Positions 23,920-25,809 of a stretch of DNA of 64,000 bases are shown piece after piece. A model generated the notes under the pieces. That model had not been told where the DNA came from, searched no databases, and worked only from the letters and a program-made list of their open reading frames with translations. The stretch comes from an uncultured Coriobacteriaceae bacterium. Lineage in GTDB: Bacteria > Actinomycetota > Coriobacteriia > Coriobacteriales > Coriobacteriaceae. The stretch spans positions 124,001 through 188,000 of the forward strand of contig CALUIM010000012.1 of assembly GCA_944320725.1 (NCBI GenBank), given 5' to 3'. The translations under genes were made by a program, and so were the position numbers. How positions within the stretch are numbered: the stretch's first letter is position 1; each line of letters opens with the position of its first letter.

Positions 23920-24003
23920 AACGGACCCTCCCGGGTGCTCTGCCAAACGTCCTCGCCGAGTTGCGGCTGCGGATGGTTTGGCAGGGCATCCGGGAGGGCC
24001 CTT
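23920..24003 (-). repeat. Long hairpin A with a 28-base core, downstream of dapH
   Basis: Arms of about 25 bases (CCCTCCCGG...CTGCCAAAC against GTTTGGCAG...CCGGGAGGG) enclose a core at 23948-23975. On the minus strand the core reads CATCCGCAGCCGC, AACT, CGGCGAGGACG. The same core, apart from its four apical bases, occurs in hairpin B about 210 bases away on the plus strand. It may terminate dapH transcription, but no U-tract follows on the plus strand. Confidence 0.7.
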
Positions 24004-24103
24004 CGCACTTGGAGGCCTTCCATGACGCAGGGATCCTCGAACGTGCCCCAAAGTAAGATAACCGCGTGTCCCCCACTCTCCGTGCCGAGACCTTCAAGTA
24101 GAC

Positions 24104-24244
24104 CGGCAGCATCGAGAAAGGAAGGGCACCTAGGCCCCACGGGGCTTTTCCTGGCGAATCATCCGCAGCCGCCTCGCGGCGAGGACGTTCGTCAGGAAAA
24201 GCCCCGTGGAACCCGTACGGCCTTACCTGTTCTCGATGCTGCCG
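24104..24244 (+). repeat. Long hairpin B sharing the 28-base core of hairpin A, inverted
   Basis: Two perfect arm pairs flank a core at 24160-24187 (CATCCGCAGCCGC, CTCG, CGGCGAGGACG). The inner pair is 17 bases (CCACGGGGCTTTTCCTG at 24137-24153 with its complement at 24193-24209). The outer pair is 15 bases (CGGCAGCATCGAGAA at 24104-24118 with its complement at 24230-24244). The right outer arm is the 3' end of the convergent nucleoid-protein gene, so the left arm is an inverted copy of coding sequence. Confidence 0.75.
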
Positions 24245-25436: not shown

Positions 25437-25809
25437 GTGGTCATTTGCCTAGGGGTATGGGTGAGCGCCCCGCAGCACTACCGCATCCATGGTCACGACT
25501 GAGGGACTATGGGTGATCTCGGCGTAGCACATCCACCTTGGTGGTCACGAATGAGGACATATGGGTGGAAGATCCGTAAGGAGCACGGAGAACGGCACTC
25601 AAATCGCCATATTTTATGGCGAAATACCACATCAAGCTTGGATAGATGGCTCTGGTACGCTGCCGCTTACGTCCATACAACCCATAGGTCCCTGATGATG
25701 ACCATCGAACACGGCATGCTACGCTCCAAGAACCCATAGGTCCCCGTTCGTGACCATCAGCAGCATGATGCTAAGACGTGAGCGCCCATACGTCCGCGAT
25801 CGTGACCAT
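25437..25809. repeat. Inverted array of six 26-bp motifs at exact 52-bp period
   Basis: Motif TGGTCA-N12-TATGGG occurs at 25437, 25489 and 25541 on the plus strand, and in reverse complement at 25680, 25732 and 25784. Spacing is exactly 52 bases within each trio. The consensus between the boxes is CACGA-N4-GGACN. The 26 bases between motifs are less conserved but share a central CGTAGC-like patch. The third and fourth units share CGTAAG-N2-GCA, so copies correspond pairwise about the centre. A separate palindrome, TCGCCATA-TTT-TATGGCGA, lies at 25604-25622. The rest of the 685-base gap (25228-25912) shows a CTGTTACG/CGTAACAG pair near 25266 and 25354 and no gene. Confidence 0.85.

Follow-up and report, generated by a model that had tools for sequence, protein, structure and literature searches.

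The window, by which we mean the whole stretch of 64,000 nucleotides that was analysed, carries six copies of TGGTCA-N12-TATGGG in a gap next to ndpA. This gap measures ~690 bp from the start of ndpA to the end of an Mbeg1-like match, compared with ~150-250 bp at the same locus in seven array-free congeners. A sequence-only reading of this DNA had described three such sites on each strand. Pattern search of the window found all six to be exact, with an exact 52-bp period in both trios, and placed each start 1 base further right than had been claimed (25438, not 25437). Gene calling gave no gene inside the array, in agreement with the reported lack of a coding frame. The CGTAAG noticed as common to units 3 and 4 is present, and what had been half seen there is a third conserved sub-site of the unit. 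With at most one mismatch allowed, the six sites were the sole matches in the 64 kb; with at most two, there were 10 matches, where 2.8 would be expected and 100 shuffles gave 8 at most. The features of the array are listed below, with the units located by pattern search, the third sub-sites by the consensus over 85 units (CGTAGCA) and the sequence, and the centre by phasing analysis.

25438..25461, + strand: unit 1, TGGTCA-N12-TATGGG, outermost left
25471..25477, + strand: third sub-site of unit 1, CGCAGCA
25490..25513, + strand: unit 2
25523..25529, + strand: third sub-site of unit 2, CGTAGCA
25542..25565, + strand: unit 3, innermost left
25575..25581, + strand: third sub-site of unit 3, CGTAAGG
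25566..25680, no strand: centre separating the arms, 115 bp, equal to 11.0 turns of 10.45 bp
25604..25622, no strand: perfect palindrome TCGCCATA-TTT-TATGGCGA within the centre
25665..25671, - strand: third sub-site of unit 4, CGTAAGC
25681..25704, - strand: unit 4, innermost right
25717..25723, - strand: third sub-site of unit 5, CGTAGCA
25733..25756, - strand: unit 5
25769..25775, - strand: third sub-site of unit 6, CTTAGCA
25785..25808, - strand: unit 6, outermost right

In the sister genome (G001), the counterpart of unit 1 has decayed to TGATCA..TATGAG, and the central palindrome is kept with the loop TTG. Elsewhere in the window, in the gap that separates the 3' end of dapH from that of ndpA (23923-24209), two stem-loops of ~75 nt lie in inverted orientation with mutually complementary loops; their arms (23940-23985 and 24150-24195) match at 83% over 46 nt, and no such pair was seen in the other array loci examined. 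An Rfam search of the region gave no match above threshold, and its two sub-threshold microRNA matches in 23923-24209 are probably an artefact of the local stem-loop.

The window's own genome (G000; 2,068,344 bases in 20 contigs) contains 82 exact copies of TGGTCA-N12-TATGGG and none of the reversed control pattern. These sites group into 18 inverted arrays (L009 to L026, the window array being L023), roughly one per 115 kb, which range from 1+1 to 4+3 units at a spacing of 52 bp (rarely 51). The consensus over 85 units is TGGTCA-N12-TATGGG-N9-CGTAGCA-N12, the last 12 bp leading directly into the next unit. Unit positions 15-16, the dinucleotide preceding the last N, are AC (51 units) or GG (26) and hardly anything else; this choice is conserved between species and is not explained by position within the array. 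With genes called by a simple codon-usage script, none of 45 arrays lay between divergent genes, compared with 37 of 168 other gaps, and arrays were enriched between convergent genes (14 of 45, versus 17 of 168 other gaps). Because arrays never lie between divergent genes, they are not promoter elements as a class. In one array locus (L018, 4073-5001), common to G000 and G001, the ribosomal protein cluster seems broken after rplX: no rplE was called next, and an array and an opposite-strand U32 peptidase gene follow instead. At three loci (L196, L203, and L016), inverted-repeat elements lie shortly downstream of tRNA genes (Thr, Gln, and Glu/Gln, respectively).

In a scan of ~85,000 species, which may omit records very near the window's own genome, the paired exact motif was found in one other species only, an uncultured Coriobacteriaceae MAG (BRZ_MF bin44), and seven further congeners lacked the exact motif. 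Related genomes had been suggested as the place to look for arrays of 52-bp period, and among 301 Coriobacteriales genomes such arrays were indeed found in three besides G000, namely G001, G009, and G014, where they follow a gene subfamily. In the last two, which belong to genus g2, a mismatch-tolerant search revealed arrays of the variant TGGTCA(A)-N13-CTGGG, again with a 52-bp period (66 exact sites in G009 and 55 in G014); variant arrays were absent from G018 of the same genus. No array locus is shared between the genus of G000 and genus g2. Viral contigs held no array; a match of a looser pattern in a phage-like contig was an exact 52-bp tandem duplication and was rejected as chance. Our literature search found nothing on these repeats. 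The sequence-only reading had also considered a regulatory array for the adjacent NdpA-type gene. This idea was abandoned, since the 18 arrays adjoin unrelated genes and array-free congeners keep ndpA, and NdpA was rejected as the binder on the latter ground.

The distance between the two arms of an array follows the DNA helix. Measured from the innermost left to the innermost right unit, the 18 centres in G000 are 42 (two arrays), 52, 62, 94 (two), 115 (three), 116, 146 (three), 156, 157, 167 (two), and 178 bp long, corresponding to 4, 5, 6, 9, 11, 14, 15, 16, and 17 turns of 10.45 bp. Their phasing at this period gave R = 0.972 (phase -0.05 bp), and with all periods between 9 and 12 bp tried, none of 20,000 random sets was as good, whether all values or only the 11 unique centre lengths were used. 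In genus g2, the centres of 24 arrays in G009 and G014 (52-53, 105, 116, and 156 bp) yielded R = 0.952. This phasing is strong evidence for a double-stranded-DNA complex spanning both arms.

Twelve arrays are orthologous between G000 and G001, in surroundings of ~81-89% nucleotide identity. Motif bases differed at 13 of 636 positions (2%), N12 bases at 119 of 636, the rest of the array at 611 of 2273 (27%), and the flanks at 1375 of 5760 (motif versus other array bases, Fisher p = 5e-56). Positions 14-16 inside N12 were almost fixed too. A motif divergence of 2% versus 27% elsewhere in the arrays indicates that the sites are under purifying selection; the arrays are not decaying copies. Together with the phasing of 18 plus 24 arrays, this selection strongly supports the earlier proposal that a dedicated protein would bind double-stranded DNA cooperatively on one face.

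Individual arrays nevertheless come and go. Six arrays of G000 are missing or lost in G001, five of them facing an array-free orthologous gap. Empty alleles could be compared at four loci of very close species with related inverted-repeat elements (G002, G003, and G007): a fragment of the repeat end remains, joined to the flank at short microhomology (e.g., GGGCG-ATTTGACCA-TCTT and GCGGGGCAATTTGACCA-AATC). Such joined end fragments mark the empty alleles as losses, not insertions. Overlaps of 5-9 bp at the empty sites were considered as target-site duplications and rejected, as they are microhomology at deletions; no target-site duplication was found at the array edges either. At orthologous places in two of these close species, the same inverted-repeat element has opposite orientations (L206 in G003 and L249 in G002), suggesting that it has inverted between its arms. 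Two G009 arrays at unrelated loci (L123 and L126) are 77% identical across just the array, and the two that flank one gene of this genome (L128) share 83% identity over most of their length. Arrays thus seem to be copied occasionally as whole units, with recent copying clearly visible in G009 only; in G000, no two arrays are recent copies, and none are as alike overall as the G009 pairs.

The gene between the two L128 arrays of G009 encodes a protein of 329-340 amino acids, and a homologue adjoins an array in all four array genomes:

C11:69838-70836 (L021:3745-4746), - strand, outside the window: G000 gene for a ~333-aa protein, ~255 bp from an array
L069:4618-5619: G001 gene
L128:4831-5820: G009 gene
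L148:2900-3883: G014 gene

The four best matches among the 301 genomes came from exactly the four array genomes (52-100% identical to the G000 protein), and the next best full-length matches reached 46% or less. Since the array genomes comprise two pairs of related species, this co-occurrence counts as about two independent events. Across 30 homologues, D235, E246, Y247, H253, D261, and R264 are invariant and K248 is present in nearly all. The residues stand in the order of a PD-(D/E)XK active site, from which nuclease activity may be predicted. In Pfam, the protein matched the MTES_1575 REase family at E = 0.011, below the family cut-off, and it had no match in PDB, NCBIfam, or PADLOC. A structure prediction from the single sequence, with no alignment, reached a pLDDT of 31, and no prophage homologues for a deeper alignment were found. 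Between G000 and G001 the gene shows dN 0.079 and dS 0.48, indicating constraint. The link between protein and arrays is one of adjacency and co-occurrence, and the likely binder of the window array is this ~333-aa PD-(D/E)XK-type protein, whose gene lies at another place in the genome. The only Y1_Tnp (PF01797) of the genome (L251, C8:18367-18723) lies ~40 kb from the nearest array; it is probably an element of the IS200/IS605 type that carries short hairpins of its own.

Remote homologues of the array-linked protein occur in 245 of the 301 Coriobacteriales genomes, often several in each, and hardly outside the order. Around 43 of 51 distinct in-order homologues have a gene-specific inverted-repeat pair nearby (20-24 of 24 bases), versus 2 of 16 ndpA loci used as the control; about 8 of the 51 have no clear inverted repeat. 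These counts are from a simple ungapped scan with one control gene family, at the loci that ranked highest in the match lists. Outside the order, none of seven distant matches had a convincing pair (in L273, a GC-rich pair lies far from the gene). The inverted-repeat scan detected gene-linked arrays that direct-repeat autocorrelation mostly missed. In closer homologues, the repeat often begins with TGGTCAAA, and a search for TGGTCAAA-N(160-190)-TTTGACCA found dispersed copies in 15 of 67 genomes of the family. Their continuations are mostly specific to the genome or paralogue and match the gene-side repeat (e.g., TGGTCAAAATACCCTGATTGTGCG in G057, G067, and G078). In the search over 176-206 bp, and with the multi-unit arrays of G009 and G014 set aside, the outer lengths were only 184-186, 195-197, and 204-206 bp. 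The restricted outer lengths and the gene-matched repeats indicate that both phasing and the pairing of gene with repeat characterise the class, and this wider rule carries more weight than the co-occurrence of array and gene in four genomes. Several gene-specific motif types can be present in one genome (G003 and G002); in G000, two other paralogues have a repeat pair of their own (L282 and L283), without further copies in the stretches examined. In G063, the reversed control AAACTGGT-N(160-190)-ACCAGTTT occurred 8 times, and nowhere else; this seems to be a further dispersed inverted-repeat family of another sequence. Taken together, the results point to an undescribed two-part DNA system that reaches across a bacterial order.

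In our judgment, a single resident protein with a PD-(D/E)XK signature probably uses the window array as one of ~18 binding stations, which are dispersed over the chromosome and fixed in place. Several copies of the protein would bind along one helix face of each arm, with one copy to each 52-bp unit, and a single closed complex would join the two inverted arms. Such joining would require the gap to be a whole number of turns. The enzyme, vertically inherited and domesticated, might be kept in REPIN-RAYT-like fashion with a few non-autonomous extragenic sequences, which would rarely copy, vanish by deletion, and otherwise persist through use to the cell or the enzyme; the leading candidates for use to the cell would be chromosome folding or transcript-end control. 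We put forward a bolder version tentatively, as a serious but unsettled prospect: most Coriobacteriales would carry a two-part chromosomal element of a categorically new class, in which a PD-(D/E)XK enzyme forms a closed synapse on phased inverted arrays and acts on them by joining, nicking, or copying, each paralogue having orthogonal stations in the same chromosome.

Persistence of the REPIN-RAYT kind best fits the distribution, and a role in chromosome architecture is its main rival. In the latter, which the sequence-only reading had listed as a nucleoid-organising centre, the arrays would be host sites for nucleoid loops, condensin loading, segregation, or nucleoid occlusion under a dedicated architectural protein; the PD-(D/E)XK protein would then either be this protein in domesticated form or stand beside an array by coincidence. 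Such a function would suit the selection that has held every site since the species diverged, the stable orthologous positions, the phased multi-site architecture, and the density of roughly one array per 115 kb. We nevertheless think it unlikely, if worth keeping in mind: the arrays are patchy (absent from seven congeners and from 297 of the 301 genomes of the order), six are lacking or lost in the sister species, positions in G000 and in G009/G014 are non-orthologous, and the coexisting gene-specific motif types of G003 and G002 would be needless for an essential chromosome function.

The sequence-only reading had also allowed for a mini-element with Mu/Tn7-like multi-site ends. Arrays do seem to be copied as units, but target-site duplications give this reading no support. 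In full, the arrays would be MITE-like non-autonomous elements, now or recently mobilised by a transposase. Terminal TGGTCA/TGACCA ends and the similar G009 array pairs agree with this, but we regard it as improbable, given that empty sites of related elements record loss by their retained end fragments, that G000 holds no recent-copy pair, and that in neutral elements the motif should have drifted like the rest (27%) instead of staying at 2%. Doubtful to a similar degree is the proposal that the inverted repeats are operators of the adjoining PD-(D/E)XK genes, in a toxin-antitoxin-like autoregulation, with solo copies as stray or regulatory operators. Many family members do have the pair near the gene start, and antitoxins of the AbiEi type bind their own promoter at inverted repeats (PMC7319586); however, at many family loci the pair lies downstream or on both sides of the gene, solo arrays shun divergent promoter gaps, and the array-linked genes, whose neighbours are partly annotated, showed no partner toxin gene next to them. 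Finally, a folded RNA or terminator cluster, including the long hairpin suggested earlier, which we reject as the main story, is very improbable despite long palindromes in ~12 of the 18 G000 centres, several of them maintained by paired changes between G000 and G001, because centre lengths track the 10.45-bp helix of B-DNA, the units are neither palindromic nor paired arms, Rfam gave no family at threshold, and short-centre arrays have no stem-loop. The central palindromes are of unrelated sequence, and since similar stem-loops also occur outside arrays, they may represent stem-loops of gene ends around which the array lies. Two arrays (L016 and L018) share the same central stem-loop (GGCGCCTGAGAAG../..CTTCTCAGGCGC) and differ in the remainder.

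If the preferred reading of resident binding stations holds, the system would be a second, independent answer to how bacteria retain a domesticated enzyme together with a few extragenic repeats, so far known from REPIN-RAYT. It would also show helical phasing across a whole genome in a very clean natural form. For a large uncharacterised protein family of gut actinobacteria it offers a handle: a candidate DNA target can be read beside each repeat-flanked homologue, which makes binding, phasing, and function testable for each homologue-repeat pair.

Several known systems share parts of this organisation. parS, matS, and Noc-binding sites are likewise chromosomal, dispersed, and served by a dedicated binding protein, but they are single short palindromes broadly conserved in clades, whereas the arrays are phased and inverted. 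BIME/REP elements of enterobacteria are extragenic, lie between tandem or convergent genes, and have an inverted arrangement. The arrays match them in all three respects; however, we recognised no shared sequence or unit size, and BIME/REP elements lack 52-bp phased units. The ends of Mu and Tn7 also carry several bipartite transposase (MuA/TnsB) sites per inverted end and TG..CA termini. In contrast, the ends of our arrays are only 42-178 bp apart and lack a target-site duplication, the 86 sites include no autonomous copy, and old copies are under selection. With the AbiEi-type, MTES_1575, and DUF559 PD-(D/E)XK proteins of actinobacteria, the array-linked protein has in common a C-terminal nuclease-like D..E-x-K domain, and with AbiEi the proposed inverted-repeat target; it differs in its sub-threshold MTES_1575 match, in having no toxin partner seen, and in its dispersed sites. 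The closest parallel is REPIN-RAYT, in which REP doublets accompany a Y1/HUH REP-associated tyrosine transposase (PMC3116915, PMC8049555). In both, one enzyme gene, resident and vertically inherited, lies beside or between copies of the extragenic inverted repeats that belong to it; non-autonomous inverted doublets are dispersed through extragenic space; a genome holds several families, each with its own sequence; and copying is rare and loss slow. Here, however, the enzyme is PD-(D/E)XK-like (D235/E246-x-K248, no Y1 match) instead of Y1 HUH; the units are ~40-bp bipartite or tripartite, non-palindromic double-stranded sites instead of single-strand hairpins; and there are up to 3-4 units per arm, helical phasing, and far fewer copies. 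By analogy, the arrays and their gene would work like REPIN-RAYT without belonging to it, both the enzyme and the repeats being of another kind.
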